Below, piece by piece: positions 29,642 through 64,000 of a stretch of 64,000 nucleotides of DNA (position 1 is the stretch's first letter; the number at the start of each line of letters is the position of its first letter). Below the pieces are notes generated by a model. The model did no database searches and was not told where the DNA came from. It saw nothing but the letters and a program-made list of their open reading frames with translations. The position numbers were made by a program, and so were the translations under genes. This stretch comes from Termitomyces sp. T153 (Eukaryota; Basidiomycota; Agaricomycetes; Agaricales; Lyophyllaceae), in contig JACKQL020000021.1 in assembly GCA_018296165.2 (NCBI GenBank), positions 62,001-126,000 on the forward strand, read 5' to 3'.

Positions 29642-29665
29642 AGGGTCCGAGGAGTCATTCTATGA

Positions 29666-29673
29666 CTTATATA
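29666..29673 (-). promoter_or_regulatory. TATA box of the 5' LTR
   Basis: TATATAAG on the minus strand, 32 nt upstream of the predicted RNA start. An identical box occurs in the other LTR. Confidence 0.75.
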
Positions 29674-41059: not shown

Positions 41060-43049
41060 CTAGTCAGCAATCTCAGGTGTATCCATACGTTTCTGCTTTT
41101 TCTGGAGAATATGGGTTGTCGGGGGCATGGTATTGTGCATAAATATCATGATACATAAAGTCTCAATGGCGAGCAATCCGAAGAGGAACCAGAGGCCGGC
41201 TGCGCGTCCAGTCCATACTGTGGGTCCGCCATGGCTGGCGTCAACACTCGTCTGGATGGAAGTGATAATAGCAGTTCCAGCAGCACATCCAAGCTGCAGG
41301 AAACAGTTGAAGATGGAGCCAACAACACCTGCTTTTTCGGGCGGTGTAGCAGCAAAGATGGCAATACTACAGGGGGATGGGTGAGTGATACGTCGATAGA
41401 TCAGTGATAAACGACATGCTTGACAGTGGTGAAAGCAATCGTGATACCGGAAGTACCGAGACAGAATCCAGGAAATACGAAACGCCAATAGTGTTGAGGA
41501 GAGTTACCAAAAGGAAGAAGCAGCGAACCCGCTATGGCAATGAGTTGTCCGAAGACGATGACCCATTTGAGTGGAAATTTCTGCTGAAGAAGGCTGGATA
41601 AAAGATTCATTGGGAAGCCTAGCAGCCCTAGGGGTAGGCTGAATAGAACTAAGACAAAATGTATGTTGAAAAGTATGAAAACGACTCACAAGTGGAGCGC
41701 AGCAATGATCGGTGTCCATCCATAGACATTTTGCCAGATCCACGAGAATAAGAGCTGGACGGCACCCCACCACATGAAAGGTAGAGTAGCAGACGCAGCA
41801 AGGACTGCAAAGTTTCTCACTCGCCAAAGGCTTGGAGGACTAAAACAAGTGAGTGGGTACCATGGATATATTCGACCTTGAAATACGTACATAGCAGCCA
41901 TATCTTCGGAAAGTCGTGCCTCCCACACGAAGAATCCAGTGATTAAGAACACTGAGATGATGAGTGGGGTCAAGCACTGTGCAGTGTCCCAGCCGTTAAC
42001 CGAACCCGTTGTCACACCAAATATGAAAAGGACTAGGCCAGCTGAGAGAAACCATTAGTTAAATGATTATTGGTTGGAATGAACCAATTTTCGAATCCTA
42101 CATGTCATCAAGAATACTCCGAAAAGATCAAGACTTCTGAAGCGTCGCGCCTCGTTGAGGACCGAATGATGTGCACGATATGCGCTCCGAGGCGAAGGAG
42201 ATAGAATGGCCACAACAAAGAAAAGAACCGCCCCGATAATGGCGAAGGTATAGAAAACCCATGGCCATGAGGAAAAACTCACAATCAAAGCACCAATGAT
42301 AAGCCCGATGACTGTTGGCCACATACGGTCACCAATTGTTTATGGATGCGACAGAAAGAGTCCATACCATTACCGAGAGCTGCGCTAGCTGCGAACAGAG
42401 CGACAGCTTTGGATTGCTGTGCTGGGTTTGGAAAGAGATGGATGATGAGGTACAAGGCAGAGGGCACGGTCAAAGCCGCTCCTGCCAGGTCTTCAGCGAT
42501 GGATTCCAAATCAAATCAAAACCTACAAAGCCTTACCCACACCCATCAAAGCTCGCAGAATGATCAAGGGAACCTGTGTTCGTACGAATCCGGCAGCCAA
42601 AGAAAATCCTGCAATCGCTGCAGCTCCCGATAGGAAGACATACTCTGTAGCGACATGAAACTTCCTCAACTCAGCGACAGAAATGGCTACTTACTGGGGT
42701 TGTACAAATCGCTCAATCGTCCGCTCTATGTAACATATAAGCCCCAAAGGATAGAACGAGGAAGTGCACTCACACTGAGCAGAAGCGAAGCGAAAGTAAG
42801 TTGATAGCCACTAATAAGCCAGACAGAGTCGCTGTTCGAGATACCAAGTTGCACGGAAATGGGCGGGATAGCAGCAAAGAGAGAAGAGTTGGCGAACGTG
42901 TCAAGGAATTGGGCCACACACAAGGAGATGAGCAGAATGACTTTTCTTGGGGTGGGCAATGCAGCCAACACTTTGTCTTCAGGACGATTATTGGATACAG
43001 AATCCTGGAAGGAGTGCGGGATTTCGGAAGAATGAGCGGCGTTGGACAT
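41060..43049 (-). CDS. MFS transporter, drug:H+ antiporter (ATR1-like)
   Basis: Plasma-membrane major-facilitator protein, probably a proton-driven exporter of toxic small molecules or metabolites; substrate unknown. Nine exons: 43049-42774, 42725-42695, 42644-42543, 42481-42368, 42311-42102, 42041-41891, 41839-41690, 41638-41420, 41366-41060, giving 519 residues with consistent phases. The N-terminus is polar (~40 residues). About a dozen or more hydrophobic segments follow. The family loop motif appears as GYQLTFASLLLSSGRLSDLY across exons 1-2; later WQNVYGWTPIIAALHFLPLG and ATPPEKAGVVGSIFN match the C-terminal half of the family. The eighth intron uses GC instead of GT (CAA/GCATGT) if the conserved frame is to be kept; the seventh ends at the second AG. 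CpG normal, no stops. The CACTA-like element begins about 355 bp upstream of its start. Confidence 0.88.
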
Positions 43050-43401
43050 GGTTGTTTCAGAGTAAGTGCTGGATTTTATGATTTGTAAGTCCGGTGCTGT
43101 TGGGAACGCATGTAAGCAGTATTGCACATCATTGCGTTCCATTCGGATGAAAGAAGGCGCTGTGCACCTCATCATGAAGGTTAAATCAAACATCAACTTC
43201 TTCCGACTCGACTCACTTGCATCTATGCACACGTAGTTTCAACTTGACATGGTTTTCTATATCTCTTATGTTAAATATGCCCAGAAATGTCGATTCTCGT
43301 CTACGTTCGAGCGTGGTGTCTTGAAGGGTGCGTCTAGCTGGCTGTGGGAGATTTCGGCCAGATTTGGATAGGCGGCTGAACACATCATGGCATGGCCGAC
43401 C

Positions 43402-43404
43402 TTG
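43402..43404. repeat. 3-bp target duplication TTG (left)
   Basis: Direct copy of 62714-62716 on the other side of the element. Three bases alone could be chance, but they sit exactly outside matching CACTG termini. Confidence 0.75.
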
Positions 43405-46400
43405 CACTGCTGAGGCCGGAACGTGTTTCCCTTGGAAAAAGTGACAAAGAAAGCTGTCATGCTACTTCCATGTCATTTTTTGGCAGGAAATATGTAAGCA
43501 ACTTCTTGTAGTAAAATTAAGGAAATTTTATACCTTCATCCAAACCCTTTCCTGTGGCAAAATAATATCTCTTTACCACTCTCTATCCATTTTAAACAGC
43601 ATGGAAATCTTTCTGATATTTCATTGCATATTTCTTCAGAAAAAAGAAACCAAATTTACTTTCAAAGTATGCATTGAAAGACGGAACCTTTTTCTTTCTA
43701 TGTTTTTCTTTGATAATTTTATCCTTTTTCTTCCGTAAATGAATAATTGAAACTTGAAACAATTTTACAGCGGAAAATGTTCAGAAAAAAATAGAATATG
43801 TATTTTCACTCAAGAAAGGTCAAAGAAACAGAGATCGACTTGATCAGTGAGTCACTGAGGGAGTAGATTAGGAAGTCACCAGCGGCTCGGCATGGACACA
43901 AAGTGGGATATGACCTTAATAATAATTGTAGAGCAATCATAGGTACATGGGACACAATTGACAAAAACATAATCCAACACTCCTAAAGTCCCCAGTCGCA
44001 TGAACAGGAATAACTGTACCATCATCTATTCTTCGGACATCATTTTTGTCCATGAAGTTGATAACTTATTGAGCACATAGGAGAGTTTGAGGTTCTTGGA
44101 CTTTGTAGATCTTGGTTTGCTTAGGGTTTCACAAAATATGTCGAGGAGATCCTGAGAGTTGATGATCGCCTTGAGGTGCACCAGTAAACACCCAGCAATA
44201 GGAAGTGCAGACACATGATATTGACTTTGAGAGTAGGAGTGGACATTGCAATGAGAAATGATTCACCTCAGCTCCAGACTCTGGAACATCCCTGTCATCC
44301 ACTTCTCAAAGAGCATGTGAATGTCAGAATCAGCATCAAGTTGTCAGATAGTCAACACCAACACTATATAAACCAGGTGAGCATAGCATGTGGACATACC
44401 TGTGATGAACATGATTATAAGCCAAATACTTGTAGAAGAATTTGGAAAAGTGATGCACAGCAGGCCTCATCCCTATTTCTCGCACTGCCCAACATGACCT
44501 CTGCATACTGCATATCCATGACCCGCCACAAGATGACTCTCAATCGGCAGCTGTTGGTTCCCCAAGCTCAAATAACACTGCACCTCCTCATAACTTGAGA
44601 TAATCATGTCCTTGTCATATGTTTGTTGCGTAGTTGCTTGAAGTAAGAACAATTGTCTGTAGAGTTGGGGTTGAGGAGAAATGCAGGGACATTAATATTG
44701 AGAAAGAACAATTGATACACCAACACAAAAGTCACGTTCAAATAGGAGGCCTGCAGCAGGGAATTAGAGAATAGCTTGACCTTTCAGAGATGACATTAAT
44801 TGACATATTGACGTGTACTGGCTGCCTGGTTGAAATTGTGTATGGTCACCATGCCTAGATTATGAGAAGTAAGCCAATTCTGAGATGAGTGAGAGAAGTG
44901 GGTCAAGAGAACAAGGAGTGTGATCAATATTGCCAATGATTGGCTAGGTGTTATTATCATTGTCACAATGTTGATCTCTCCATGCTTCAAATATATATTG
45001 TCTGTCTACATCTATCTTTGAACATTAAGTGAAGTAATGGTTAATAATTTTGAAAATTTATGCTGTCATGATTATACATCTGCAGAATCTAAAACAGTGT
45101 TTTCTAATGTGACGTGGTGAGTTGATTGAAGGTGAATTTAAGACAATGGACTCACCCAGGACAAGGATACTACAACAGTTGCATTCTTCCCTTCCCAGGA
45201 TATGCAATGCTGAGCAAAATGAGTCTTAACATTATCAAGATGGCAAACCTCCACCTGCAACTTGAACTCAACTCCCCAGAGTTTTGCTTTGAGATGAGGA
45301 AACTTCAAGCAGGGATCATGTTGGATGCCAACTGGTTTCAATGATTGTCCAACCAACCATTTCCCTTTGAGATTATTGCTGGAAGATTCTTCAAATTCTA
45401 CAATGGTGTCAATGCAGAATGGGATACCAGAGTCAATACAAAAGATATCACTGTTTCCCCTGTGATGCCTCAGTGAAGTGAAGGATTGATTGTTGGACAT
45501 TACATGATTTAAGAATATGGCACATTATCTTTATCATTGTCAAAAGTCAAATCAATATCATGGATGCCTAAGGGGCTGCGGATATTGGAGGGTATGAGTG
45601 ACTTAAACATATCATAGCACATCAGCATTGGTTGAGTACAGGTTGCTTTTGTGAAGTATGCACAAAGATTTGTTAAAGAATGCCATGACTGAGAGATAGT
45701 TTCTTTGTACTTGCCTTAAGATGTGATTGTTAGATTAGCTATGAAAGACATGAACAAAATTTATCTTACCCTCCTTATAGTTTGTTGAAAAGCATTGCAG
45801 GATGCCAATCACATGCTCATATGGATATGCCCACCAGCCATGTACAGGGCCATACATACAAATTTATTCTGATAGATGAAGAGCAATATGGTGGTTTGGA
45901 TGACATTTGTAATCTGGAAACAAGATTTATAACTGTTTGCAGTATTTGAGCATATGAAACATGTACTTGTCTGCATGTTGAGATGATGTGACTTGTGATG
46001 AAGCAATGACAATGGCAGATAATATATGCATCGTGAGCTGGAGGAGTTCCTGTCTATGCTGCAACTTAGTGCCTTCAGAGGTTGAGTTACTCCAGAGACA
46101 TATCAGAGTCATTGGAAGATATAAAGACCCAATAATGCACCACTGGTTGGATTTGAGTTTCCCACAGGATGGTGTTCCAAGTGCTGCAGGAGGTGACTGG
46201 ATCCAAGATGGTTTGATCAAACTCTCTATATCTGCCCAGAGCACCTCCATCTCCTTGGTTGTAAAAGCAATTCCATGTTGAAGTGGATGAGGGTTGTTCT
46301 TCTCACTTCTCTCACCATTGTCAAGAGTTTGACTGTGTTTCATGCACTAGAGATGGGAAAAAATTAGTATGTGCAAGGCTGAAAAAAATGTTGCTTACCC

Positions 46401-48762
46401 AGTCAAGTAGTCATTCAGCAATGTGCACCTTTTTGAGTGCTTTGACTGCAAGTGGTAAGGATGTATCCTTGCCTTCAGCATCAACCATTGACAAGACACA
46501 ATGAACACCTTTTGCAACATAGATTAATGAGGCTAAGTGGGCATTACTCCACTGCTTGATTGTCTGCTTCACAGTGATATGGTCATTTTGGTCAAAATCC
46601 AATGGTGTTTCCAACCATGCAATGATTTTTTGAACACTTGATTGTTCTTGATGAGTTATGGGGAGGGGATTTTGAGGAGATTCAGGGATTTCAATATGAA
46701 GTGATGTCTTGCAAGGGCTCTGTCAAGCAGAGGTGTCATAGCCAAGAATTCCTTGAAAATGCTCCTTGATCAAACCAAGGAACAGATTGTGCATTGGATT
46801 AATGACAAGAAAACAAGCAGGTTCATAGTATGGAAGGCGGAGAAGTTCAGACCAATGAATGCCAGACATATCAAAAGATCTCTGAGCAGCTGCATTTGAA
46901 GATGCTGATTTCCATTTCTCTGCAAGTCTGTGACATTCTTCATTTGTCCAATGGATCCAGGAATTGACATTGATGTCATCATATGTATGGTTGAATCTGG
47001 TGCACCAACAAACAGAACAGAAGTAGCGATGACTATGGGATGAGAAGCCACCAACTTTTCAAGCAGCAGGCAAGTCACAGACTACAGCAACAAGAGTGGC
47101 CAAGATAAGGCAGCCTGAACTGTATTTTGCTGTGCATGTAAAGAAAATTCCATTCCATAGTTCAAGGAAGGCATCAACCAATGGTTGCAGATAGGGGTGA
47201 ATCTGCAATGTAGAAGGTTCCCCAGATATAATCCCTGCAAGAAACATGTTCTCTGGCTTGTTACATATTTCAATTGGCAGGTTGAGGCATGAAACTGTCA
47301 CTGCACCAATGGATACCTTCTTCCCCACTGCTTTATTCCTGAGAGGATTAAAGAAATCGACACTCAATGCAAAGATGTAATGACCAGCATCTTTTCCACC
47401 CAATACACTGAAATGGGTAGTTCCATCTGGCCCTTTGAAATTTTGGATAACTGAGCCTTGGAAAATGTCGTTAAGAAGTCCATCAGAGGATTGATCATTC
47501 ATTTGTTCCCAAGCACCATCCATTAGATTTTCAAATCCTTGACATGAGAGAAGACCTGCAAGCCAGTCCTTGAAATCGCATGCAATATATGGCTTGATTG
47601 GAGTGTAGATTGTACAACCATCAATTGTTTTTTGGCACACCAGAACCCCATTACAAGCAGAGTGTCCATAGGCCTTGTATCTACAGACTCTAGCATACAT
47701 GGGAATACCATCACAGATGGTAGGAGTGTAAATTCTATGGCATTTGAGACAAGTGGCATAAATTGTCTTCTTGCTCTCAAGGTTGAACTGGGCTGCAGCG
47801 GTTTGAATGTCATGTGGGAAGTCACTGAGAATGGACTGGAAGTAGGGAAGACTGTCAATGTTATGGAGAAAGGGCTGAAAGCCTAGTACAGATGCAACCA
47901 ACTCATTGACAAGTGCAATTGCCTTGAGGACAGTCATCTGTATGATGAGGTGAGTAATGTTGAACAACCAGGAACAACCTCTCTGAGGAAACCTCAGAAT
48001 AACACTGCAGCAAACAACCATAATAAGTGATAATTGCACCCAGGGTTTTACATTTTGAAGGTTGTCATGAAAGTGGTGAGCTGGGTTGTTGGACTGAGAA
48101 TCTAAACAATGATGGTCAATGAGATCTCACCTATATCATATTTTCATCTATAAGGAATGTTATTGCCCCTCCTTGCTACTTCAGTCCAATAAACTTTGAC
48201 TTCATTGAGTTTTTGCAAGGATTTTGCAATCCTGTCCTCCAATTCCCTATGAATCTCCAGTAATCCCCCATCACCACCACAACCCTCTCGAATGAACTTT
48301 AGTTTATCCATTTCATTATGAATATGTAAACCAATATTATCAAGGTCCTTGAGGACACCGTCCATGCTACATTGTGATGACAGTGTTGCAAGCTCTTCAA
48401 CAGAACAAATGTGACACTGCAACCAGACCTCCATTTCCTCCATGCATAATAATGACTGCTGATCAAGCAGTGAGTGGGTCAATATGGGTGTGTATGCTTG
48501 ACCTTTCACCAAGGAGGCAACAATGTCTGCTTCCTGAGACTGAATGGCTTGGCTCTGTGCTGTTTTGAGCAACTGTTGATATCAACTGTCTTCAAGCTTT
48601 GTCACTGCAAATTTGTCAGTTAGATTTGCAAGTTGATCATCGTCTTGATGTTTCTTCCAGACTCAAGGAGGGAGGTGATTGCCTCTTCCATTGGTTTCAA
48701 ATGCTTTGCGACAACCATGGGAAATGCACTGGCACAGCTTGAAAGGGGGCATAGTATGATAT
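43405..48762 (-). repeat. Left inverted arm (5,358 bp)
   Basis: Reverse complement of 57356-62713. Mismatches I found by eye are few: two in the outermost 25 bp and one near the inner end (48741 region). The arm runs from the element end to 10 bp upstream of the transposase ATG. Outside the transposase it holds AT-rich subterminal sequence (43430-43800) and a stretch with short unassigned frames (44026-44990). Confidence 0.95.
45138..48752 (-). pseudogene. Tnp2-like transposase, left copy (decayed)
   Basis: Mirror image of the right-arm copy at 57366-60980, with the same translated fragments and the same stop codons. ATG at 48752. The conserved core (DFFNPLRNKAVGKKVSIGAV, CLNLPIEICNKPEN) is at about 47059-47400. 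Because the arm stops 10 bp before the ATG, its upstream sequence is the end of the WD40 gene region, quite different from that of the right copy. Confidence 0.88.
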
Positions 48763-48839
48763 CAATGTGACAGAGCTTCCAATGAGAATACAAGGAAAAT
48801 TAAAAATTCATGATTAAAGGGGTAAGTCATTGTCAAGCA

Positions 48840-50770
48840 TCACATCAATCCATTATTTTTAATCTCAATTTATTTGACAGATGGGAGAGTAGGCAAGCTA
48901 GCACTAACTGAAGTACTAGTCAAGGTCAATTGCAAGGTGCTCAAGATCATTTCCTTAATGCTAGTTATAGACACAGCCAAGGATGAAGCACCTAGTGAGA
49001 AGTCTTGCATCTGATTGCTGAGTTTGATTGAAGCTTCAGTGGCATGAGAAAGACCACCCCCAACTTCACCAAGAAACTTATAAACAATTCAGTGGAGTAC
49101 TACTGGCCAGTGTAAGCATTCAATGTACCTGCCAAAAGTAAGGCATCCAGAATGAGTGGGTGCTTAACAGGATAATAGGGAGGGATTGGAGAAAGGAAAC
49201 TAAGAGGGTGTCAAGCACCTTGTGTGATGCACTAGTTTGGGTTTGAGGTGCAAAAGTCATGGACATGACAGGCCTATCATCAAAACTATAATCCTGATCA
49301 TCCATTATAAATTAATACTTTGTGTGACATGAAACTTGACCCACAACTTTCTCCTAAACATAGATGGTGGGTTGGGTACTAGAAGATCTGCAGGCAATCA
49401 GATGCTGATGATCACCAAGGCTAATGGTAGCAACAGCCTGAAAAACATCAGAAGCTACAATCATTGAGTAAGAAGTGATAACAGAATATAAGAAAGACCA
49501 ACTTATGGTTTTCTGAGATTAACTCCTGGCATAATCTTTGCATGGCTAGGTTGATGATTTGGACAAATTGTTGATCACTTTCACAAACAGCAAACTTGCC
49601 ACCTTCAATATAAGTCACACCTTTTATAATTTGTTCAATTGATTTTGAAGGAATCGAGGTATGAAGATTGCCTATAGGGAAACGATAGAGGTCAAAATTG
49701 TTTGTGCAAAGGTTATCAACAAGTAACATGCTCCCATCTGGAGATATGGCTGTGTTCCCACTGTATCTGGATAAGTATCTGTGAAAACCTTACAACACCA
49801 AATACTCATATTCCACCTAGAAGGAATCACCTCCACTCAATTGTTGAATCCTCTCCATTCTGACAGACACTAAAATCCAGGTCAGAATTTTGTTATATTG
49901 TCTCACAGTAGATCCTTACATTTTGCCTCCTTCCAGGAAGGATGACAAAAGATATCGCTTTCACAAACCAAAAAACTGCAATGATCGAGGTATGTCTGTA
50001 CTGTCAACTCCCAGAGAAGGATCAGACTTTCTGTATAGACATTAGGACACAATCAACAGTTCAGATGAAAACTCACTTCTGCAAAGCTTGAAGACTTTAA
50101 GTACCCTGGAATGGCTGGCCAGAGCAAGCCTTGCATTGATATTGTTGTAAGCTTGAGCCTTGATAGGGTCATTGACATGAAATGGAAATGTTGTACTTGC
50201 TTCATTTCAAGCAAACATCTAATTGAAGTATGAGGAAAATTGTTCGTAAACCAGAACAGTAAACATTTTGTACCATTCCTTCTGTTGCTTTGGGGCAAAG
50301 GGTATGTGAACCTCTGCCCATGCCAGCACTGATCCAATCTGAGAAACCCTCAGGTGATGAGTTGCAATGCAGCCATTTGATGGATGTGATCTGCACCCAA
50401 TTCTGACTGTGCATCACTTGAATGCATTGTAAGGTAGTAAGATCCCAAACTTGAACACAGTCATCATCACCTGTGGGCTTGAAGTATTACTAACAACAAC
50501 TGCTTGTCCAGAAGAAGAGCACAAACCTCCAGAGAGCAATATATGGCCATTGGGAGAGAAAGCGATGCAGTTAACTGCCTCTTGAGAGCCTTCTAAGTGG
50601 TGATGCAGAGTATAGAATTGAGACTACACCACAAGGATAAAAAGACAGGACTTATTATGATTCAACTATTGACGTACCATGAGTTTCAGAGAGTGTAAGG
50701 TCACAAATGACTTGAAGATTTAAAAGGCAATCTTTCCATCTAAAATGGAACAAGGGACAGGCTGGTGCTT
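48840..50770 (-). pseudogene. WD40-repeat protein gene, decayed cargo
   Basis: Minus-strand pieces in order: EGSQEAVNCIAFSPNGHILL at about 50600, then QVWDLTTLQCIQVMHSQNWV, a first WD repeat; SFLDLSAGMGRG-type loop; MLLVDNLCTNNFDLYRFPIG at 49729 and KGVTYIEGGKFAVCESDQQF, a second propeller; and a C-terminal hydrophobic-poor tail ending near 48850. This arrangement matches a WD40 protein that I recall as common in Agaricomycete genomes and often near transposons; its function is not known. Frames are interrupted by stops and possibly introns, and CpG is low, so I call it a pseudogene, although some breaks may be introns. It lies next to the left arm and runs toward it. Confidence 0.65.
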
Positions 50771-53434
50771 GGAAACATCTGGATGGAACAAACAAGAGCC
50801 TTGTTGGCCTTGGCAACATTGTGCAACTCAAGGGGCAGTAGAACAACGAATGGCAAAGTTATAAGAACAGGATTGACAAGAGATATTTTGATTGCTATGC
50901 CTTATATTGAGAAACATTGTCCTCTTATCATCCATTGCATCCGCTTCAGGCCAGCTCCTTATCCCCCACGAGTCTGGATTACCCATTGTATTGTCTTTTT
51001 GGAAGAGCAGCTCCAACTCTCAATGATATGCAATGAGATATTGGATGAAGAGATTCAGTTCAATCCAGAGCTGAGTTCTAAACATACCCAACCTGGAGAC
51101 AAGCATTCATTCAGAGACAGCAGTGATCATCAACCTGACTTTGAAGACCGCCAACAGGCACGAGAATCTCGAGCACATATGCCTGCAAAAGTCAATGAAC
51201 AAGGGAACATTCAATGATTGTGACATGTTACCTTCCAGAAATCTTCCGAAGTTACTGCCAGTGGTGGCAATTGTTGACTCAGACAATCAGGAACCATGCA
51301 GCTTCAGTCTGGTTCACCTGAAACATAAGATACTCAAATTTTCAAGAAGCCTCCAGGAGAGCCTGGTCGTCCAAATGCAGGAGGGCACAATGTTGAAGGT
51401 GAGCTGATTAAGTTGCATTGGTCAAAAGCTCAATATAATGCTCTATACATGAGTTGGATATACATTCAAAAGGTTTCATCCAACTTATATTTACTAGAAT
51501 GTGGTCAAGTTAGAGGTGACTGAAAAACTTGACATGTCACAATCTTCTTGGTACCAGAAGCAGGAAATTGTTAAAGCTATATGCCAGTTGGTGAGAGGTT
51601 CAGTTTGTTGTATGCATACTCACTGATTACAACCCTACTGATAGCTAACTTATGACTCTCAATGGCCATCACTTGAATGCTATGAGGAGTGCTAACCAGT
51701 GTGCAGCCTTCTAAAAATGGTACTGAAAACAGGAACAGATGCGCATAAGCATGCTCAGTCAAAACAAGTCTTGGAGGTAGTTGCATCTCATGGAAGAGGT
51801 GTTTTAGTATAGTAGATATGAAAGCACCTTATGTCTCTGAACTTGTTATGACTGAATATCTGTATATCATTACAATTGTATGTAGAAACAAGCATGCAAT
51901 GATAATGCAACAATTATAGCTAATTATGTAGAACAAGCAAAGCCTCAATAGTCAAAATCTGGGCTGGTGATGTAAATCCCTGTGAGCTTTTTGAGGGTTC
52001 AGCAGGGAGCATGGGCAAGGCCTTGTTAGATTAGAGTGGTGATTTTATTCATCTTGTGAGCGAGAGCATGAGGTTAATGAGAAGGAGGGGATGGGATGGG
52101 ACATACAGTAACAAAGGTTGCTGCTTTGCACTGTGTGTAGTCATTGAGGGGCTGCGTCATTGAGTCACTCTTGAGAGCTTGCAGCTGCAAGGCAGCAGGA
52201 ATGGTTGCTGAAGTACTCAGTGCAACCTCCAAAATTTCCTACTGAGTGACAAACGTGATGTCACCAAGATGATAATACATCAAAAGTATTGCAAGTCCTA
52301 TGTAACCGACAAAATTCAGCTGATCATTCAAGTATAACTGAACGTATAAAATGCACGAGATTGCTGATGTCTGCACACTTTATGAGATGTGGTTTTTAGT
52401 GTGGGCGTTTCTAGGACTGGAATGGCAAAGGAAAGCTTTGGGGTGGTTAAGGGGCAAATATAGGTCATAGAGGGCTTGCATAGTGGCTTTGGCTTGTAAG
52501 CATTAGGTGTGCAACTGTGGCCTTGGAGATTGTATGGAGATATCTGTGATGGTTTTAGGGAGGGTAAGGTGATCAGGAGCAAGGCATGGTATTTCTATCC
52601 TCATAGGCAATTCAAGATGCACTATTAGAAGTTAGTTTGGAGAAACTATTGGTTGTCACAGAGCCCACAGGACTCCCAGAGTATTTTTCCTTATGTCTAT
52701 TATGATCAAGGCTTTGTGAGAGAGCTTGTGAGGATGGCGCCATGCAATTCCTTGGAAGGTTCTCTTGTAGAGTATTGTTATGAGTGGAAGGACAGGCAGA
52801 GGTCATTATGAGACTGAGGATTGGTCAGGTTGAGTGAGTCAAGTACTTGATCAAGTGTCACAGTGACACAGCACAGCAGCATCACACATTGAGTCGTAGT
52901 TGTCATAGCCTTGAGTTTTTTTGCTTTGTTATCCACAAGACCCACTAATATATTTCAACTCTTATTTCTAATAAGTATGGAGTGCAGATACCTTGTGGAA
53001 TTTCCTCCTGGGGCTTGGTTCTGTCAGCAATATTATGTTTCTGTAACATGAAGGCAATTGTTGTGCATCATTTACTTAATATGCACCAGGCAGGTTACTT
53101 TGATACGTGGGTAATGGGCTATGGGATGGAGGAACAGCTCAAACTCAAAGATTTAGAGAAATATGAGGAAATGTGCATATTGAAAGCCAAATCATGGTGA
53201 CTTGGTCTTTGCTATGAATATTATCAAACCTTGTACAGCCTCAGCATCAGTGTAGCTTTGTAGATAGTCACTGGTATGTAAATTTTGATTCAGTATTCAG
53301 TTGTAGAGTCAAATTCATGCTAATTATGATTTGAATAACAAGTATTCAATTGAATGGAGCAAATTTGGGAAAAGAAGTTTGCAACAACAGTATGTGCTAG
53401 GGATGTCAATTAAATGTAGATAGTACAAAACAAG
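50771..53434. other. Spacer sequence without recognised gene
   Basis: The frame 50765-51217 on the plus strand (150 codons) is the longest, without motif and antisense to the start of the WD40 remnant. 52982-53200 plus reads a short charged stretch (NMHQAGYFDTW, KLKDLEKYEEMC) that could be part of a small helical protein. CpG-poor throughout. Confidence 0.35.
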
Positions 53435-53960
53435 TCATAACTTTTTTGCCTTGGCCAATACATCCTCCAGCCCCATAAGATTTTGATCAACTTTTTCAAT
53501 CATTCTCCTGCAGGTTGGGCATGTTGCAAAGGGTCTGTATTCAATCCACCCATCAATACACTCTTTACAAAAGAGATGACCACATGTTAGACTGAATAGG
53601 ATTAGTGACAATTTAAGAATCAAAAATTGACACCTACATTGTTAATGGTAATTTGGCAACATCATAACAGATGCTGCAAAGAGTGAGACCCTTTAAGACT
53701 GGAATTAGCTGGAATTGGATGGTAAGTTTGACAGCAAATAATATGATGTCCAACATACAGACTGTTAAACACAAAAAAGATGATCTTGCGACTCCATTGT
53801 ATGAGATAATTGCTTTGAGTATCAGGATTAGTCTGAGTCAAGGAGATGAATTCTGATTCACACTTCTTTAAGTTCATTGACCTCTATGAATTTAGCCTCC
53901 CTGAGCTCCTCCGGTTGACACTGTACGTCTGTGTGCAACTAGAAAAATGATGGGATTGAG
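53435..53960 (-). CDS. RING-finger (C3HC4) protein, C-terminal exons
   Basis: Probable E3 ubiquitin-ligase type zinc finger. Exon 53698-53638 encodes LTLCSICYDVAKLPLT, then an intron (53637-53592, GTAGGT...TTCAG), then exon 53591-53435 encodes TCGHLFCKECIDGW, ATCPTCRRMIEK and ends with TAA. Together they supply all eight ligands in C3HC4 order (CSIC, C-G-H, CKEC, CPTC). Upstream, about 53930-53800, one frame gives a Glu/Lys-rich helical stretch (QPEELREAKFIEVNELKKCE), likely a coiled coil in an earlier exon; the start codon is not resolved. No stop breaks the RING exons even though the region is CpG-poor, so this cargo gene may be intact. Confidence 0.7.
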
Positions 53961-54790
53961 TGCATGCTTCTTATACAGGAACACTCACTACTCATAATGC
54001 ACATAATAATGCATCGATATGGTTCTTTTCTGCAACAACTTTAGCTAATGCATTCCATAAAACACTGGGCTGCAACATGGAGCTCAGTGATAGTAAAAAC
54101 ACTGATCACCCAGCATAGTCTCACCTGATTACTAGTGGAATCAGTTGTTGGTAGTCCCATTTGACCACAAGGATTGAGTGCAGCATTGTATAACTTGGCA
54201 TCTGTACTTCATCAATAAGGCTGGATGCCACTGGATTTCAGAGCTTTCATTCTAGGAGCCATGGGTTATCACTTCAATTTAATAAGATGCCCTTCTACAA
54301 GTATTCAGTACTCACTCAAGGTGCTAGAAGTAGGCACAAAAATGGAACAAGGCACTCAATCATAGTACAAGGTGCCAAATCATGGTGAAAGAAATTTCCT
54401 GGATGTCTTCAGGGTTGAGTACAATGCATTCCAACCAGGGTGACAAAGTCTAGATAGCAACCAGTGAGAATACAAAGCAGTGGGCCAGGGGCACTATAGG
54501 CAAGGCACAACAGAGACTACATCCAAATATGGCTTGTTGTGTGTCCCATGACAATTATTCTTCTCTTTTTGACAACTTTCATTACAGTTGTCAGTCCTCA
54601 TTTCCTTCCAGCATATGACATTCAAGCAATCAGGTGAGTACAAGAACATCTTGAAATGATTGTCAGGCACATTCTCTATTGCTCAGGGCCCGGTATAAAA
54701 TGGTGTACATCTTTTCTTGCCAACAAATTTGTGTGTCTGAGTGTCCACCTCATACAGACTCAGACTCTTCAGCAATAACTTGCACTCTCA
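53961..54790. other. Between RING and coiled-coil genes; no gene seen
   Basis: Intergenic between two divergently oriented cargo genes (RING minus, coiled-coil plus), so it may contain both promoters. CpG-poor; no box stands out. The upstream exon(s) of the RING gene could lie here. Confidence 0.35.
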
Positions 54791-57040
54791 ATGCCTTTCA
54801 ATTTTTTCTTCAGAGGTCCTCTCCTCCTTCAAGATACCCAATCACAAGATAATCACTCTGATGACCCTCCCAATGGACATATCTACAATGACAGTACTTT
54901 ACTGACAATCGAGAAAATAGAGGACTCTACAGCTGATAGTCCAGCAGTGTCCTCCCAACAGTCTTCCAATTCCATCATGCCACCTCCCCACCAAAAGGTG
55001 TCAACCCATCACTTCTCTTCTTTGCATGTGCTGCTTTTGGTCCATGGTGAAACTTCATCTGTAGAGGCAATGGTGCATAGGGTGAGTACTTCTTCTATCA
55101 ATGCAAAAAAAAAGCAATCACATATGTTTTCTAGAGCAATACCAATCAGCAGTCTGGCGACGTTGAGATCAACTCAGCTGCAGTACTCTTCAATAGTTCT
55201 AGTGCATCTGTTTCAGGAGTGAGGCACCTTATTTTGAAGTGTACTTTGCCTTGTATCATTAATTTTTAATTTCCAGAATATATTGACTCAAAAGTGCAGA
55301 GGCAGTGACAGCTTATCTACTAACTATGAAGACACCGAGATTGCTGCAGATAGTGTACATATTTGAGAAAGTTAGCACATATTTCTATATTAACAGTTTA
55401 TACCAGAGTTACTGCCATCACACTAAGGTTAGAGTCCTTCAAGATCCTATGCTGTGCCTTCAGAACAATTATGTAAAATTATTTATTTTTGCCTATTTTA
55501 TTTGTTGTTCACCTCTTGTGGCTTAGCTTTCAAACCAGCTGAATGAGGAGTGGGTCAGGGTCAATGCTCTCAACCATCAGCTATCACAGGTAAGAATATT
55601 CTCAATCATTTCCAAAGGCCCCACTTCAAAAAGATTCTTTGTTAGATACAACAAGAACAAGTAGCAACTGCCTGGCATGCAAGAGGAATATATGACAGAA
55701 TGTCTTCCCAACTGCAAGCTGTCACTAGCAAAAGAGATTCAGCAGTTGAAGAATTAACAGTGGTTGCTCAGGCCCTGGATATGGTATCTCCTACTGAAGA
55801 ATGCATTGAATTGTCTCTTGTGGCCAGCAATGAGCTGGCTCTTTCCAACCAAATCTTGCTCACCAACAGTCTTGTTCAGCATGCCCAGGCTCTCCAAGCT
55901 TCAGTCATTGCATTCACAGGCTCTTGATGACCAGAATCAAGATTATGAACATTGATTTACACACAAGTATGAGCAATGCTTGCAACAGGCACTTGATGAA
56001 CATGAGCAGCGCTATCAACAGGAATTCAAAAAACAACTTCAACAGGAGCATCAAATTATTTCAACACAGCTGGAGGTGGCTACTCAACAGCAGTTGCAGG
56101 AACTTAGCGCAATCATAAGCAATCATATCAATCAGTAATACATTGTATGCAAGAGGAACACCAGCAGGAAACTGTGGAGCTCACTAGAGCCTGTGAAGGA
56201 CTGGAGAATAGGATCCAAGAACTAGAACGAGTTGGAATTCAGGCAAGTTTACATGAAATATAAATACCTTCAAAGTCAACTGAGTTTGGAAATAATAGGA
56301 ATCGCAAGAATGCAAGCAACGCTTTCAAGAAGAACTCAAGCAATGCCTTCAGCTGCAACAACAGAATCTTGCAACACAAACAGCAGCTGAAATTCAGCAG
56401 CGCTTGGATGAACAGAGTCACATCCATGAGCAATCTCTCCAAGCTCGAGTGAGTTGATTGGAAGAGGAGCACCGGCAACAAATCATGGAGTCTACTATTG
56501 CTCATGAAGAAATGGAGAGCAGGATTCAAGAACTTGAGGAAGTTCAAATTCAGGTATTATTGTTCATTCTTTTTGGAACAAGTATTGTTATTTTTCCCTT
56601 TTATAGGCAGCAAATGCAATCAAGCAAGCTCATACTTCTGCTGAAGCAGCTTCTCACTCTGAGACAGCCTTTAAATCCATTCTCAACCACAATACTAAGG
56701 TTATATCAGACCTTCAAGAACAAGTCAAGGTAAGTTGAGTTATATTCATGAAGAGACTTGTTTCTAACTACAAGCACAGTGTCTTGAAGCCCAGACTGCT
56801 TCCAATAACTCCCATCATGTGTCAAACATGGCTACAGACCCTTCTCAAGTTTCACAAGCCAGTAATTTGGACCCTTCTGTACAACGTCCATCAATTTTAG
56901 ACACCTTGTCAGATTGTGCACATAACAGACTTCTGGCAGATTCTCAATTGACTAGAATCCATGTATGTATAGTTCTCTCAATGACAAGTCTATCCTGTAA
57001 TTCATACTTTCTACTAGGTAACTGAAGAAGCAACTCAAGA
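54791..57040 (+). CDS. Glutamine-rich coiled-coil protein (cargo), model uncertain
   Basis: Several plus-strand exons with plausible GT-AG introns (for example the one starting at 55080). The first gives a Ser/Thr/Pro-rich low-complexity start (MPFNFFFRGPLLLQ, later TLLTIEKIEDST). Then come long helical, Gln/Glu-rich stretches: LNEEWVRVNALNHQLSQ, MSSQLQAVTSKRDSAVEELT, QQEFKKQLQQEHQIISTQLE, ELTRACEGLENRIQELERVG and EEEHRQQIMESTIAHEEMES. The EL-E-R-I-Q-ELE motif recurs, suggesting internal duplication of ~100 residues. Stops occur between some pieces, so either introns are missed or the gene is partly decayed. A structural or scaffold role is a guess. It runs toward the right-arm transposase. 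Confidence 0.5.
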
Positions 57041-57355
57041 CAGGCATTCTCAAAGATGAGTCTCCTTTGAGTTAGCAAGTATTGAAGAGACAATCTCCCC
57101 CCTTCTCCAGATATCATGACCATACTCATTCATGACTCCCCAAACTCCTTGTCTATGTCTTCCTACTCTGCAGCCTTCATCTCCTGCTTTCCCTGTGCCT
57201 GCCTCAAGGGCTCTGCACTCTTCACCTCTATGCCAACTATTGACACCAGTTCTTGCTCCACATCAAGATTCTATTCCTGATTTCAATTCTTCTAGTGCCT
57301 CAGCAGCTCATAACCACCAAAGACCAAGTGGAGACAATTATCTCCACTCTCCCCA
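57041..57355 (+). other. Ser/Pro-rich stretch leading into the right arm
   Basis: A frame from 57132 is rich in Pro, Ser and Cys (TPCLCLPTLQPSSPAFPVPA) and passes into the arm without break, in a frame different from the transposase. It may be the last exon of the coiled-coil gene or its 3' flank plus the transposase promoter. Confidence 0.35.
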
Positions 57356-57365
57356 ATATCATACT

Positions 57366-60300
57366 ATGCCCCCTTCCAAGCTGTGCCAGTGCATTTCCCA
57401 TGGTTGTCGCAAAGCATTTGAAACCAATGGAAGAGGCAATCACCTCCCTCCTTGAGTCTGGAAGAAACATCAAGACGATGATCAACTTGCAAATCTAACT
57501 GACAAATTTGCAGTGACAAAGCTTGAAGACAGTTGATATCAACAGTTGCTCAAAACAGCACAGAGCCAAGCCATTCAGTCTCAGGAAGCAGACATTGTTG
57601 CCTCCTTGGTGAAAGGTCAAGCATACACACCCATATTGACCCACTCACTGCTTGATCAGCAGTCATTATTATGCATGGAGGAAATGGAGGTCTGGTTGCA
57701 GTGTCACATTTGTTCTGTTGAAGAGCTTGCAACACTGTCATCACAATGTAGCATGGACGGTGTCCTCAAGGACCTTGATAATATTGGTTTACATATTCAT
57801 AATGAAATGGATAAACTAAAGTTCATTCGAGAGGGTTGTGGTGGTGATGGGGGATTACTGGAGATTCATAGGGAATTGGAGGACAGGATTGCAAAATCCT
57901 TGCAAAAACTCAATGAAGTCAAAGTTTATTGGACTGAAGTAGCAAGGAGGGGCAATAACATTCCTTATAGATGAAAATATGATATAGGTGAGATCTCATT
58001 GACCATCATTGTTTAGATTCTCAGTCCAACAACCCAGCTCACCACTTTCATGACAACCTTCAAAATGTAAAACCCTGGGTGCAATTATCACTTATTATGG
58101 TTGTTTGCTGCAGTGTTATTCTGAGGTTTCCTCAGAGAGGTTGTTCCTGGTTGTTCAACATTACTCACCTCATCATACAGATGACTGTCCTCAAGGCAAT
58201 TGCACTTGTCAATGAGTTGGTTGCATCTGTACTAGGCTTTCAGCCCTTTCTCCATAACATTGACAGTCTTCCCTACTTCCAGTCCATTCTCAGTGACTTC
58301 CCACATGACATTCAAACCGCTGCAGCCCAGTTCAACCTTGAGAGCAAGAAGACAATTTATGCCACTTGTCTCAAATGCCATAGAATTTACACTCCTACCA
58401 TCTGTGATGGTATTCCCATGTATGCTAGAGTCTGTAGATACAAGGCCTATGGACACTCTGCTTGTAATGGGGTTCTGGTGTGCCAAAAAACAATTGATGG
58501 TTGTACAATCTACACTCCAATCAAGCCATATATTGCATGCGATTTCAAGGACTGGCTTGCAGGTCTTCTCTCATGTCAAGGATTTGAAAATCTAATGGAT
58601 GGTGCTTGGGAACAAATGAATGATCAATCCTCTGATGGACTTCTTAACGACATTTTCCAAGGCTCAGTTATCCAAAATTTCAAAGGGCCAGATGGAACTA
58701 CCCATTTCAGTGTATTGGGTGGAAAAGATGCTGGTCATTACATCTTTGCATTGAGTGTCGATTTCTTTAATCCTCTCAGGAATAAAGCAGTGGGGAAGAA
58801 GGTATCCATTGGTGCAGTGACAGTTTCATGCCTCAACCTGCCAATTGAAATATGTAACAAGCCAGAGAACATGTTTCTTGCAGGGATTATATCTGGGGAA
58901 CCTTCTACATTGCAGATTCACCCCTATCTGCAACCATTGGTTGATGCCTTCCTTGAACTATGGAATGGAATTTTCTTTACATGCACAGCAAAATACAGTT
59001 CAGGCTGCCTTATCTTGGCCACTCTTGTTGCTGTAGTCTGTGACTTGCCTGCTGCTTGAAAAGTTGGTGGCTTCTCATCCCATAGTCATCGCTACTTCTG
59101 TTCTGTTTGTTGGTGCACCAGATTCAACCATACATATGATGACATCAATGTCAATTCCTGGATCCATTGGACAAATGAAGAATGTCACAGACTTGCAGAG
59201 AAATGGAAATCAGCATCTTCAAATGCAGCTGCTCAGAGATCTTTTGATATGTCTGGCATTCATTGGTCTGAACTTCTCCGCCTTCCATACTATGAACCTG
59301 CTTGTTTTCTTGTCATTAATCCAATGCACAATCTGTTCCTTGGTTTGATCAAGGAGCATTTTCAAGGAATTCTTGGCTATGACACCTCTGCTTGACAGAG
59401 CCCTTGCAAGACATCACTTCATATTGAAATCCCTGAATCTCCTCAAAATCCCCTCCCCATAACTCATCAAGAACAATCAAGTGTTCAAAAAATCATTGCA
59501 TGGTTGGAAACACCATTGGATTTTGACCAAAATGACCATATCACTGTGAAGCAGACAATCAAGCAGTGGAGTAATGCCCACTTAGCCTCATTAATCTATG
59601 TTGCAAAAGGTGTTCATTGTGTCTTGTCAATGGTTGATGCTGAAGGCAAGGATACATCCTTACCACTTGCAGTCAAAGCACTCAAAAAGGTGCACATTGC
59701 TGAATGACTACTTGACTGGGTAAGCAACATTTTTTTCAGCCTTGCACATACTAATTTTTTCCCATCTCTAGTGCATGAAACACAGTCAAACTCTTGACAA
59801 TGGTGAGAGAAGTGAGAAGAACAACCCTCATCCACTTCAACATGGAATTGCTTTTACAACCAAGGAGATGGAGGTGCTCTGGGCAGATATAGAGAGTTTG
59901 ATCAAACCATCTTGGATCCAGTCACCTCCTGCAGCACTTGGAACACCATCCTGTGGGAAACTCAAATCCAACCAGTGGTGCATTATTGGGTCTTTATATC
60001 TTCCAATGACTCTGATATGTCTCTGGAGTAACTCAACCTCTGAAGGCACTAAGTTGCAGCATAGACAGGAACTCCTCCAGCTCACGATGCATATATTATC
60101 TGCCATTGTCATTGCTTCATCACAAGTCACATCATCTCAACATGCAGACAAGTACATGTTTCATATGCTCAAATACTGCAAACAGTTATAAATCTTGTTT
60201 CCAGATTACAAATGTCATCCAAACCACCATATTGCTCTTCATCTATCAGAATAAATTTGTATGTATGGCCCTGTACATGGCTGGTGGGCATATCCATATG

Positions 60301-60980
60301 AGCATGTGATTGGCATCCTGCAATGCTTTTCAACAAACTATAAGGAGGGTAAGATAAATTTTGTTCATGTCTTTCATAGCTAATCTAACAATCACATCTT
60401 AAGGCAAGTACAAAGAAACTATCTCTCAGTCATGGCATTCTTTAACAAATCTTTGTGCATACTTCACAAAAGCAACCTGTACTCAACCAATGCTGATGTG
60501 CTATGATATGTTTAAGTCACTCATACCCTCCAATATCCGCAGCCCCTTAGGCATCCATGATATTGATTTGACTTTTGACAATGATAAAGATAATGTGCCA
60601 TATTCTTAAATCATGTAATGTCCAACAATCAATCCTTCACTTCACTGAGGCATCACAGGGGAAACAGTGATATCTTTTGTATTGACTCTGGTATCCCATT
60701 CTGCATTGACACCATTGTAGAATTTGAAGAATCTTCCAGCAATAATCTCAAAGGGAAATGGTTGGTTGGACAATCATTGAAACCAGTTGGCATCCAACAT
60801 GATCCCTGCTTGAAGTTTCCTCATCTCAAAGCAAAACTCTGGGGAGTTGAGTTCAAGTTGCAGGTGGAGGTTTGCCATCTTGATAATGTTAAGACTCATT
60901 TTGCTCAGCATTGCATATCCTGGGAAGGGAAGAATGCAACTGTTGTAGTATCCTTGTCCTGGGTGAGTCCATTGTCTTAA
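57366..60980 (+). pseudogene. Tnp2-like transposase, right copy (decayed)
   Basis: CACTA-superfamily (Plavaka/Tnp2-type) DDE transposase. It starts MPPSKLCQCISHGCRKAFET, a Cys-rich N-terminus. One frame runs to ~57990, a short intron (about 57991-58019) follows, then the core to ~59726: FNLESKKTIYATCLKCHRIY, VDFFNPLRNKAVGKK, LNLPIEICNKPENMFLAGII, PLVDAFLELWN, ALIL-type CDLPAA, GGFSSHSHRYFCSVC and INPMHNLFLGL (relatives have DPMHN or DSMHN, so a conserved acidic residue is lost). After an intron (59719-59771) the C-terminal helices and GPVHGWWAYPYEHVIG follow to ~60348, and weak homology goes on to ~60600; the frame 60618-60980 is unassigned. In-frame stops: TGA after LPP, after LEDS, after PYR, after LPAA, after DTSA and after HIAE, mostly where Arg is expected (CGA to TGA), plus two TAA near 60188 and 60250. 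The gene is dead, but its length is complete. Confidence 0.9.
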
Positions 60981-62713
60981 ATTCACCTTCAATCAACTCA
61001 CCACGTCACATTAGAAAACACTGTTTTAGATTCTGCAGATGTATAATCATGACAGCATAAATTTTCAAAATTATTAACCATTACTTCACTTAATGTTCAA
61101 AGATAGATGTAGACAGACAATATATATTTGAAGCATGGAGAGATCAACATTGTGACAATGATAATAACACCTAGCCAATCATTGGCAATATTGATCACAC
61201 TCCTTGTTCTCTTGACCCACTTCTCTCACTCATCTCAGAATTGGCTTACTTCTCATAATCTAGGCATGGTGACCATACACAATTTCAACCAGGCAGCCAG
61301 TACACGTCAATATGTCAATTAATGTCATCTCTGAAAGGTCAAGCTATTCTCTAATTCCCTGCTGCAGGCCTCCTATTTGAACGTGACTTTTGTGTTGGTG
61401 TATCAATTGTTCTTTCTCAATATTAATGTCCCTGCATTTCTCCTCAACCCCAACTCTACAGACAATTGTTCTTACTTCAAGCAACTACGCAACAAACATA
61501 TGACAAGGACATGATTATCTCAAGTTATGAGGAGGTGCAGTGTTATTTGAGCTTGGGGAACCAACAGCTGCCGATTGAGAGTCATCTTGTGGCGGGTCAT
61601 GGATATGCAGTATGCAGAGGTCATGTTGGGCAGTGCGAGAAATAGGGATGAGGCCTGCTGTGCATCACTTTTCCAAATTCTTCTACAAGTATTTGGCTTA
61701 TAATCATGTTCATCACAGGTATGTCCACATGCTATGCTCACCTGGTTTATATAGTGTTGGTGTTGACTATCTGACAACTTGATGCTGATTCTGACATTCA
61801 CATGCTCTTTGAGAAGTGGATGACAGGGATGTTCCAGAGTCTGGAGCTGAGGTGAATCATTTCTCATTGCAATGTCCACTCCTACTCTCAAAGTCAATAT
61901 CATGTGTCTGCACTTCCTATTGCTGGGTGTTTACTGGTGCACCTCAAGGCGATCATCAACTCTCAGGATCTCCTCGACATATTTTGTGAAACCCTAAGCA
62001 AACCAAGATCTACAAAGTCCAAGAACCTCAAACTCTCCTATGTGCTCAATAAGTTATCAACTTCATGGACAAAAATGATGTCCGAAGAATAGATGATGGT
62101 ACAGTTATTCCTGTTCATGCGACTGGGGACTTTAGGAGTGTTGGATTATGTTTTTGTCAATTGTGTCCCATGTACCTATGATTGCTCTACAATTATTATT
62201 AAGGTCATATCCCACTTTGTGTCCATGCCGAGCCGCTGGTGACTTCCTAATCTACTCCCTCAGTGACTCACTGATCAAGTCGATCTCTGTTTCTTTGACC
62301 TTTCTTGAGTGAAAATACATATTCTATTTTTTTCTGAACATTTTCCGCTGTAAAATTGTTTCAAGTTTCAATTATTCATTTACGGAAGAAAAAGGATAAA
62401 ATTATCAAAGAAAAACATAGAAAGAAAAAGGTTCCGTCTTTCAATGCATACTTTGAAAGTAAATTTGGTTTCTTTTTTCTGAAGAAATATGCAATGAAAT
62501 ATCAGAAAGATTTCCATGCTGTTTAAAATGGATAGAGAGTGGTAAAGAGATATTATTTTGCCACAGGAAAGGGTTTGGATGAAGGTATAAAATTTCCTTA
62601 ATTTTACTACAAGAAGTTGCTTACATATTTCCTGCCAAAAAATGACATGGAAGTAGCATGACAGCTTTCTTTGTCACTTTTTCCAAGGGAAACATGTTCT
62701 GGCCTCAGCAGTG
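60981..62713 (+). other. Outer part of the right arm: unassigned and subterminal sequence
   Basis: 61500-62095 contains short frames (SYEEVQCYLSLGNQQLPIES, LRLIFCETLSKPR-type) in changing registers that may be a decayed second protein or the last exons of the transposase. 62320-62690 is AT-rich with no frame, as expected of a subterminal region. The same sequence, inverted, is at 43405-45137. Confidence 0.45.
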
Positions 62714-62716
62714 TTG
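62714..62716. repeat. 3-bp target duplication TTG (right)
   Basis: Partner of 43402-43404, directly outside the right CAGTG end. Confidence 0.75.
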
Positions 62717-62930
62717 AAGGATGTCGGGTGGGAGTTTCTAGACATGTTTGTATGTGCCTGACCTATTGAGTGGGAGCTAAAGCCACACACATCCATTTGG
62801 GGAGCTTGCTCCCCACTGGGTCCTAAGTTGAAAATAGGCTACACACCATTCCTTTATAGTACATGGCCGTATGGGTATGGCAAAAGAATGGTTACAGCCT
62901 CTGTGAGCCATGTCATGTGAGCTTTTTATA
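62717..62930. other. Flank of the CACTA-like element, nothing seen
   Basis: A short, moderately CpG-poor stretch between the element end and the decayed gag. No feature recognised. Confidence 0.4.
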
Positions 62931-62939
62931 AACCTTTAA

Positions 62940-64000
62940 CAGCACGGCACTGTGGAATCACAGCCATAAATGGTGTCCTGGTGTGGATGTTAAGTTGATT
63001 TGAAACATGACATGCTACAATATATTTTGCTATAGAATGTCTAATTAAGCTGTCAGAGATAAATATATGAAGGGATCTCTGGCAGCAGGGAGCATGCTGC
63101 AGGGATGGCAGAGATAAGGGCCAGCATTGGGCAAGCAGGTATGGGGTGGCAGAAATTGGTGATTGGAGCTGAGCACAGCATGGAATGTGGGCAGCAGAGC
63201 TCTCTTTGGATCTCCATAAGTTGCCACTGGTTCTAGGCCAACTCATACCATGATGCAATCTTTTCATCATCTGAGTGACCCTCTACAAGATTGTAGATGC
63301 TTTCCACCAGTGTGGGGTGCAGGCCATCCCAGAAGGTGAGGTATAATTGAAGGCCATCAGAGTAAGCAGCCTGCTTGACCAGAGCCCAGAATGAGTCAAT
63401 GTACTCATCCACTATATGCTTTCCTTGCCTGTATTGCTCCCTATCACATAGTGTTAAGGCTGCAGTCTTGGTGGGGTCTAATGGGAAAAATTCCACATGG
63501 AAGTCCTTCTCAAAGGCAGCCCAGTCCAGAAAACTTCCAACACCTCCAGAGTGATTGAAAACTTACAATGCATAGGTGGAGGCACATCTGGTCTTCATGT
63601 ACAACAGTATCAGGCTATTTTCACATTGGAGTCAAAGGTTTCCCTACTGAGGTGAATGTAGGTGAGGCACAACTGCAAGAATTGTTCCCTGCCAGAGTGG
63701 GTGCCATTGTATGCATCTGGTAACACAGGGCATGGAATCTGCAGCTATAAAGTCATCAGAGCTGTGGAGATGGGTGCAGACACAGTTGGAGCTGGTTTTA
63801 CAGCTAGGAGAGGTGCAGAGGTAGGAGTTAAGCATTTGAGCAGTGCCTGGAGCAATTTGGAGATCAAATCTGTGGTTTGATAGAGGTTAGAGAGTTTGGT
63901 AGTGTAATGGGTGAGAGATGATTGCATTAATTGCACCTGGAGTTCTAGGTGTAGTAGGCAAGTCCAGGCTTTGTCCTGCAGGGCCAGGGCCTCTGAGGGT
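62940..64000 (-). pseudogene. Decayed Ty3/gypsy gag, partial at window edge
   Basis: Minus strand from the right edge: EALALQDKAWTCLLHLELQV and SLTHYTTKLSNLYQTTDLIS (helical N-terminal part), a broken middle with YIHLSRETFD and a stop-interrupted ALKIA-like stretch, then 63496-63233 MEFFPLDPTKTAALTLCDRE, VDEYIDSFWALVKQAAY, LTFWDGLHPTLVESIYNL. This is the capsid domain of a gypsy gag. Trp and Cys replace expected Arg (CGG to TGG, CGC to TGC), showing CpG decay. Dead; a different family from the young element. Confidence 0.85.

Follow-up and report, generated by a model that had tools for sequence, protein, structure and literature searches.

An old CACTA/EnSpm-type transposon of Termitomyces whose right end was probably rebuilt by break repair

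Structure of the element

The window considered here, a 64,000-nucleotide stretch of contig JACKQL020000021.1 (positions 62,001 to 126,000) from Termitomyces sp. T153, contains a DNA transposon with two long inverted arms around an 8.6-kb spacer (Table 1). We propose that it is an old and inactive CACTA/EnSpm-type element whose right end was probably rebuilt by break repair between its own ends. The arms, at 43405-48762 and 62713-57356, mirror each other: position i is complementary to 106118-i over 5,358 bp, with only 3 mismatches (99.94% identity) at 43418, 43423 and 48742, two of which are CpG sites within the terminal 19 bp. An inverted match of 5.3 kb is not explicable by chance, and the identity ends sharply at 43404/43405 and at 48762/48763. 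This base-by-base check bears out the initial annotation, which had described inverted arms with few mismatches and a constant coordinate sum of 106,118, as well as TTG on both flanks; the triplet is indeed present before the left end and after the right end. The terminal sequence is CACTGCTGAGGCCGG on the left and, in inward reading, CACTGCTGAGGCCAG on the right; the element thus has the termini CACTGCTGAGGCC, of the CACTG..CAGTG type.

The arm transposase contains the tnp2 domain (PF02992; E 4e-09, 36.4 bits against a Pfam cutoff of 28.6), as expected of the tnp2-type transposases of the CACTA/EnSpm (CMC) group. The CAC..GTG form of the termini is seen as CACTGCTG at both ends of the window copy and of four further copies, designated C4, C19, C13 and C95, and all five examined have 3-bp target duplications (TTG, CAT, CTA, AGA and ACA, that of C19 being defined by its outer right end). 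Based on its transposase, termini and 3-bp duplications we assign the element to the CACTA/EnSpm type, in agreement with its earlier description as a CACTA-like element with CACTG ends, a 3-bp duplication and arms far beyond the usual size. The terminal inverted repeats (TIRs) of CACTA/EnSpm elements are usually, though not by definition, short, with lengths of tens of bp, whereas in this family they range from 501 to 5,358 bp across copies. CACTA/EnSpm elements also have subterminal repeats that are bound by a second protein.

The transposase start codon (57366, mirrored at 48752) lies 10 bp inside the arm. Within the first 775 codons there are six TGA stops, all of them common to both arms, and two more stops follow in the next inferred exon. 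Hence, the notion that each arm carries a whole transposase gene stands with respect to the gene span but not to its integrity. Four of the six stops are private to the window copy, while the remaining two also occur in C19 and not in C4, the comparison with these copies covering the six sites rather than a systematic survey of stops. Judging from these stops, both transposase genes are dead. A read-through query, with X at the stops, recovered at least 49 homologues from 7,997 candidates scored, the best with 64% identity across the full query. Among the matches listed, to which these counts refer, 48 of the 49 contain PF02992, and seven sources are named, namely Termitomyces, Galerina, Gymnopilus, Mycena, Pleurotus, a 'Chlamydiales' metagenome bin (28% identity) and potato (E 7.6e-4); on these matches alone an Agaricomycete host would be very probable. 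The observed/expected ratio of CpG is 0.13-0.14 in the arms, 0.12 in the spacer and 0.82 in the adjacent 41686-43404. Since other repeat-rich parts of the window are low as well (0.04-0.28), this decay is not special to the element.

The spacer corresponds to the normal interior of the family: C4 has all of it, and C19 all but ~1.9 kb. Gene models were inferred in this analysis, and the interior genes are named after Pfam matches to fragments. No Pfam family scored above cutoff in the right-hand gene of the window or in its pieces from C4 and C13. This gene is truncated at the right inner joint, and its final part is kept in C4 and C19. The joint runs from spacer through the bases CA to the arm, with no microhomology. 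The frame at 57120-57455 continues unbroken over the joint; however, an in-frame passage would arise by chance in one case out of three, and it leads into a broken transposase.

Table 1. Coordinates of the element and its parts (window numbering unless another contig or locus is given)
Feature	Position	Strand	Remarks
CACTA/EnSpm-type element, whole	43405..62713		19,309 bp; limits from ends and target duplication
Left arm, proposed original (donor)	43405..48762	-	arm-spacer order as in C4 and C19
Right arm, proposed copy	57356..62713	+	in place of a different 1.56-kb region and the ~1.63-kb TIR of C4 and C19
Ordinary family TIR, left arm	43405..45038		matches both ends of C4 and C19
Ordinary family TIR, right arm	61080..62713		matches both ends of C4 and C19
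Target-site duplication TTG, left	43402..43404	+	
Target-site duplication TTG, right	62714..62716	+	
Transposase gene (tnp2, PF02992), broken, left	45770..48752	-	mirrored from right copy; 3' limit approximate
Transposase gene, broken, right copy	57366..60348	+	start codon agrees with homologue P0001
Inferred introns, right transposase copy	57988-58016 and 59720-59771	+	
TGA stops, right transposase copy	57453, 57534, 57972, 59057, 59393, 59705	+	
Family interior	48763..57353		95% identical to C4:1101696-1110287
WD40-repeat gene fragments	49451..50623	-	PF00400 on 50417-50623, E 4.2e-06; other fragments below cutoff
RING-finger fragment	53438..53641	-	PF13639, E 1.6e-07
Right-hand gene	54779..57353	+	rich in glutamine and coiled-coil-like on visual inspection; limits also set by eye
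Two-base filler CA at right inner joint	57354..57355	+	read directly from the sequences
Open frame crossing joint	57120..57455	+	right-hand gene into copied transposase start
Flank copy in C19	source L026:5776-5855; copy L028:2354-2433 (C19:22354-22433)		inverted

Related copies and the ordinary form of the element

Searches of the genome assembly (72.4 Mb in 307 contigs; all counts are lower bounds) recovered two copies that are ~95% identical to the window element, C4:1096219-1113477 and C19:5856-22353, the latter having a further, outer end at 22534. Together with the window copy and the more distant C13 and C95 these were compared, diverged relatives on C22, C23, C27 and C45 being set aside. 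In the orientation of the window, both C4 and C19 have TIRs of ~1.63 kb, a single transposase on the left, the same interior and a right-hand region of 1.56 kb; C19 differs in that ~1.9 kb of the interior is gone and a ~1.1-kb insert lies within the transposase arm. The ordinary form therefore reads: ~1.63-kb TIR, outward-reading left transposase, interior genes, right-hand gene and ~1.63-kb TIR. The right-hand region (C4:1110288-1111844) is absent from the window, and its six matches in the genome are C4 itself (100%), C19 (95%), C13 (71%) and three pieces (66-74%). In its stead stands an inverted copy of the left arm that spans everything between the terminus and a point 10 bp short of the transposase start codon. 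Given that C4 and C19 keep the order seen on the left and have a different region on the right, the left arm probably acted as donor, and the right arm took the place of the earlier sequence. A second locus with the same joint or with long arms was not found in the assembly searches.

Seven ends in all are at least 97% identical to the terminal 100 bp, namely those of the window copy (2), C4 (2) and C19 (3), and 24 further genome matches show 72-88% identity. Inverted pairs of CACTG-type ends with a spacing of ~200 bp are seen at C8:295799-296001, C5:594407-594609, C58:254164-254366 and C95:55673-55871; these may be small, non-autonomous elements related to the family. An unrelated repeat of ~1.1-1.2 kb is inserted in C13:637624-638819 (L030:1224-2419) and C19:16420-17548, and also lies at C4:1090149-1091302, ~5 kb from the C4 copy.

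Timing of the arm copying

The extra duplicated stretch beyond the ordinary TIR (45039-48762) offers 3,708 sites aligned among the window copy, C4 and C19. Of 118 substitutions private to the window copy, 117 are present in both arms; the sole exception is 48742, where the right arm (57376) still has the same base as C4 and C19. Across the entire left arm there are 145 private substitutions, and 143 of them occur in both arms; the exceptions are 43423 and 48742. The copying therefore followed nearly all of the decay of the window copy and, by this count, is very young relative to its age. Decay usually follows insertion in silenced copies; if this applies here, the arms would also have been copied after insertion. 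We infer that, in the window copy, the TTG duplication marks the insertion of an ordinary element and not of the long arms. The suggestion in the initial annotation that the whole structure inserted as one unit is thus most likely incorrect, as the sister copies C4 and C19 represent the ordinary form with ~1.63-kb TIRs and one transposase. More generally, kilobase-long inverted arms within a target duplication need not mean movement as one unit.

Terminal repeats across the family

At the right end of C19 the TIR extends to 22353 and is followed first by an 80-bp inverted copy of flanking DNA, then by a single filler base and lastly by 100 bp of an older end. The 80 bp reproduce the left flank 5776-5855 exactly, in inverted orientation (0/80 differences). 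As the target duplication CTA fits the outer end alone, this copying happened in place, after insertion, and evidently ran outward beyond the left terminus into host DNA. On this reading, the event in the window would be of the same type in the opposite direction, inward and beyond the inner edge of the repeat.

The TIR lengths within the family are 501 bp, ~1.29 kb, ~1.63 kb, 1.64 kb and 5.36 kb. The two TIRs of a copy resemble each other more than the copies do among themselves. Within copies the values are 99.3% over 1,606 bp in C4 (where mismatch counts vary with the alignment near the inner edge, one arm having a 27-bp indel), 5 differences in 1,641 bp in C19, 10 in 998 plus 6 in 299 bp in C13, and 91% over 501 bp in C95. 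Between copies, identity is 93-96% among the window, C4 and C19, ~66-76% for C13 and ~65-70% for C95 in the main matches. The left TIR of C13 is split by an unrelated 1.2-kb insert, and its TIR includes ~300 bp of the inferred third transposase exon.

A base-by-base comparison of the tips of the window copy, C4, C13 and C19 places the outermost mismatches at positions 14 and 19 in the window, 13, 19, 44 and 45 in C4, 11, 13, 17 and 26 in C13, and 13, 18, 19 and 69 at the outer end of C19; in C4 and C13 additional mismatches occur deeper within the TIRs. This distribution suggests that copying seldom extends to the very tips, with CpG decay at the tips as an alternative. CpGs common to C4 and C19 are lost in the window copy at 1 of 8 TIR sites versus 40 of 44 outside (Fisher p 1.8e-5). 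The corresponding losses are 2/9 versus 12/16 in C19 (p 0.017) and 4/11 versus 11/15 in C4 (p 0.11, not significant). Such survival of CpGs in the TIRs would fit correction by copying, but lower methylation of the TIRs as well.

A break-repair model and its alternatives

In light of the above, we consider it probable that the right end of the window element was rebuilt by break repair between its two ends, through one-ended copying closed by end joining. The relatives in the same genome likewise suggest sloppy DNA repair between the two ends of the element. The process could have begun with a double-strand break in the right arm, arising either from fragile hairpins or from transposase cuts. 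The flank-side end, still bearing the TIR, would then have paired with the left TIR, and synthesis would have proceeded inward beyond the inner edge of the repeat, reaching 5.36 kb from the terminus. There the new strand could have quit its template and been joined, free of homology, to the spacer-side end, which would have left a palindrome that carries the dead transposase gene twice in identical form. Thus, the repeats would permit the copying, and the absence of homology beyond them would make its closure sloppy. One-ended invasion, synthesis and end joining together account for the donor side, the tract, the lost DNA, the filler bases and the timing.

Several points weigh against this proposal. 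The assembly is taken on trust, and the break itself is not seen. The post-insertion timing rests on decay, without a captured flank as in C19, and a decayed copy may be moved by transposase made elsewhere. All three mismatches between the arms lie within 20 bases of an arm edge (chance ~4e-7 if evenly spread), which might also reflect short-range correction along the edges of a collapsed repeat. Further, the two TIRs of C95 share just 91% identity, which shows that copying does not operate constantly.

An unlikely alternative is that the long arms predate the insertion: template switching during repair of an excision site (abortive gap repair) would have produced the palindrome, which decayed and was then moved by transposase from elsewhere. 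The intact TTG duplication accords with this, and the 24 weaker end matches, several of them in inverted pairs ~200 bp apart, suggest movement of the wider family in trans. However, the assembly searches revealed no second locus with the joint or the long arms, and the seven ends of at least 97% identity all belong to the window copy, C4 and C19. As the arms differ at one base besides the two tip positions, a very recent move of a decayed element would be needed, and C19 shows the same type of event in place. We regard it as improbable that the right arm is a misplaced copy of the left arm generated in assembly, an explanation favored by the position of the mismatches near the arm edges and by the occurrence of such arms at a single locus. 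Repeat-made misjoins usually need homology at the joint, but here there is none and two extra bases are present; moreover, at 57376 the right arm retains the family base, which is altered in the left arm, and four other copies also have inverted TIRs. A mis-sorted piece of the window copy should show up as a third right-hand region with ~95% identity, besides the two in C4 and C19; none was found, the four other matches being at 66-74%.

Two further candidates fare poorly. A composite of two opposite CACTA insertions around foreign DNA, suggested by the two transposase copies in inverted arms, is highly improbable: each arm would have to be complete with two termini, but the inner arm edges lack a CACTG terminus, the spacer is the family interior in normal order as C4 and C19 attest, and a single target duplication encloses everything, so that this candidate was ruled out. 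That the double-transposase form is a selected architecture has nothing in its favor beyond the form itself and is scarcely credible, as the same six stops interrupt both genes, including four that only the window copy has, and the form is absent from all four other copies examined (C4, C19, C13 and C95).

Extending the break-repair model to the family, we put at about even the chances that, in this fungal CACTA lineage, recurrent copying between TIRs sets their length, keeps them alike and slows their decay, with overrun capturing the transposase in the window copy or host flank in C19. If true, this would offer DNA transposons a simple route to acquire flanking DNA and become palindromes. 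TIR length varies widely among DNA transposons and its stepwise changes are seldom traced; here one genome holds ancestor-like copies, the product and the joint. TIR growth, homogenization and flank capture could thereby be brought under a single, testable process of break repair.

Relation to known transposon systems

The available part of one account describes fungal CACTA/EnSpm elements as having an EnSpm-type transposase, CAC..GTG termini and 3-bp target duplications (PMC12730594). The window family resembles these in transposase type, termini and duplication length, but unlike the elements as described there its TIRs measure 0.5-5.4 kb and change copy by copy. The termini of Plavaka elements are given in the same part as TGT..ACA or CATCA..TGATG (PMC12730594). 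Membership in Plavaka is ruled out by the CACTG..CAGTG termini and by the Pfam results. PF18759, which we take to be the Plavaka model, had no match in the eight stretches scanned and was found in 1 of the 49 homologues among the matches listed.

The closest precedent for the window element appears to be the TIR extension of Galileo, a P superfamily transposon of Drosophila. According to the accessible portions of the relevant papers, its TIR length varies by copy, and internal sequence enters both TIRs, including parts of the transposase open reading frame (69 bp, and >500 bp in one Drosophila willistoni copy); TIRs reach ~1.26 kb in Drosophila mojavensis, the longest there being without the transposase frame, and the authors suggest recombination between close long inverted repeats as the cause of TIR growth (PMC3573991, PMC4168063). 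The same process is apparent here, as internal sequence is present in both TIRs of the window copy when compared with C4 and C19. In contrast to Galileo, the window transposase belongs to PF02992 and not to the P superfamily, and its host to another kingdom. Relative to what those portions report, the window element goes further, with a 5.36-kb TIR that holds a complete gene span and sister copies that reveal what the ancestor looked like, which side was the donor and where the joint lies.

Other systems are comparable in part, as far as the sections available describe them. Mu killer is a rearranged MuDR derivative of maize, termed a transposon inverted duplication in its founding paper (PMC8224964). 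The window element is likewise a naturally rearranged transposon, but its arms are 8.6 kb apart and its genes read outward; a silencing role of its palindrome akin to that of Mu killer was considered as a possibility. In duplications mediated by synthesis-dependent strand annealing (SDSA), nearby DNA is copied at a break, and deletions, filler or microhomology occur at the joints (PMC2671141). The copying in the window and C19, with filler bases at the joint, is similar; however, the SDSA cases described are from vertebrates and mostly short captures, while entry in the window would be via a long inverted repeat. The DNA transposon KolobokP has long repeats at both ends, which are direct and each bear their own short TIRs (PMC9587614), unlike the long repeats of the window, which are inverted and without inner termini. 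Among the titles and abstract openings listed on long or duplicated CACTA TIRs, with few subscription papers covered, no complete transposase in both arms is described.

Genomic surroundings

Neither an empty allele nor a second haplotype was found: the 1,000 bp directly left of the element occur once in the assembly, and for the first ~350 bp to its right no second match turned up among the 40 candidates scored out of 918, the remainder of that flank being repeat. Rfam gave 0 matches on 43000-63000 at gathering thresholds, and ARAGORN found no tRNA genes in the window. To the left of the element, stop-to-stop frames on the minus strand (41686-43238) resemble by eye a major facilitator superfamily (MFS)-type membrane transporter, in which case the element would be positioned upstream of the start of that gene. 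A Ty3/Gypsy chromodomain retrotransposon (RVT_1, rve, Chromo) occupies 19258-30066, with 62% GC and a CpG observed/expected ratio of 1.08, within surroundings of 0.08-0.28. Its long terminal repeats of 988 bp are 99.2% identical, and all 40 matches scored for its part 23000-25000, out of 855 candidates, reach at least 95% identity; it belongs to a recent burst and is perhaps a recent arrival. Finally, 2198-3443 and 32585-33832 are inverted copies of ~1.25 kb with 85.5% identity, separate from the CACTA element.
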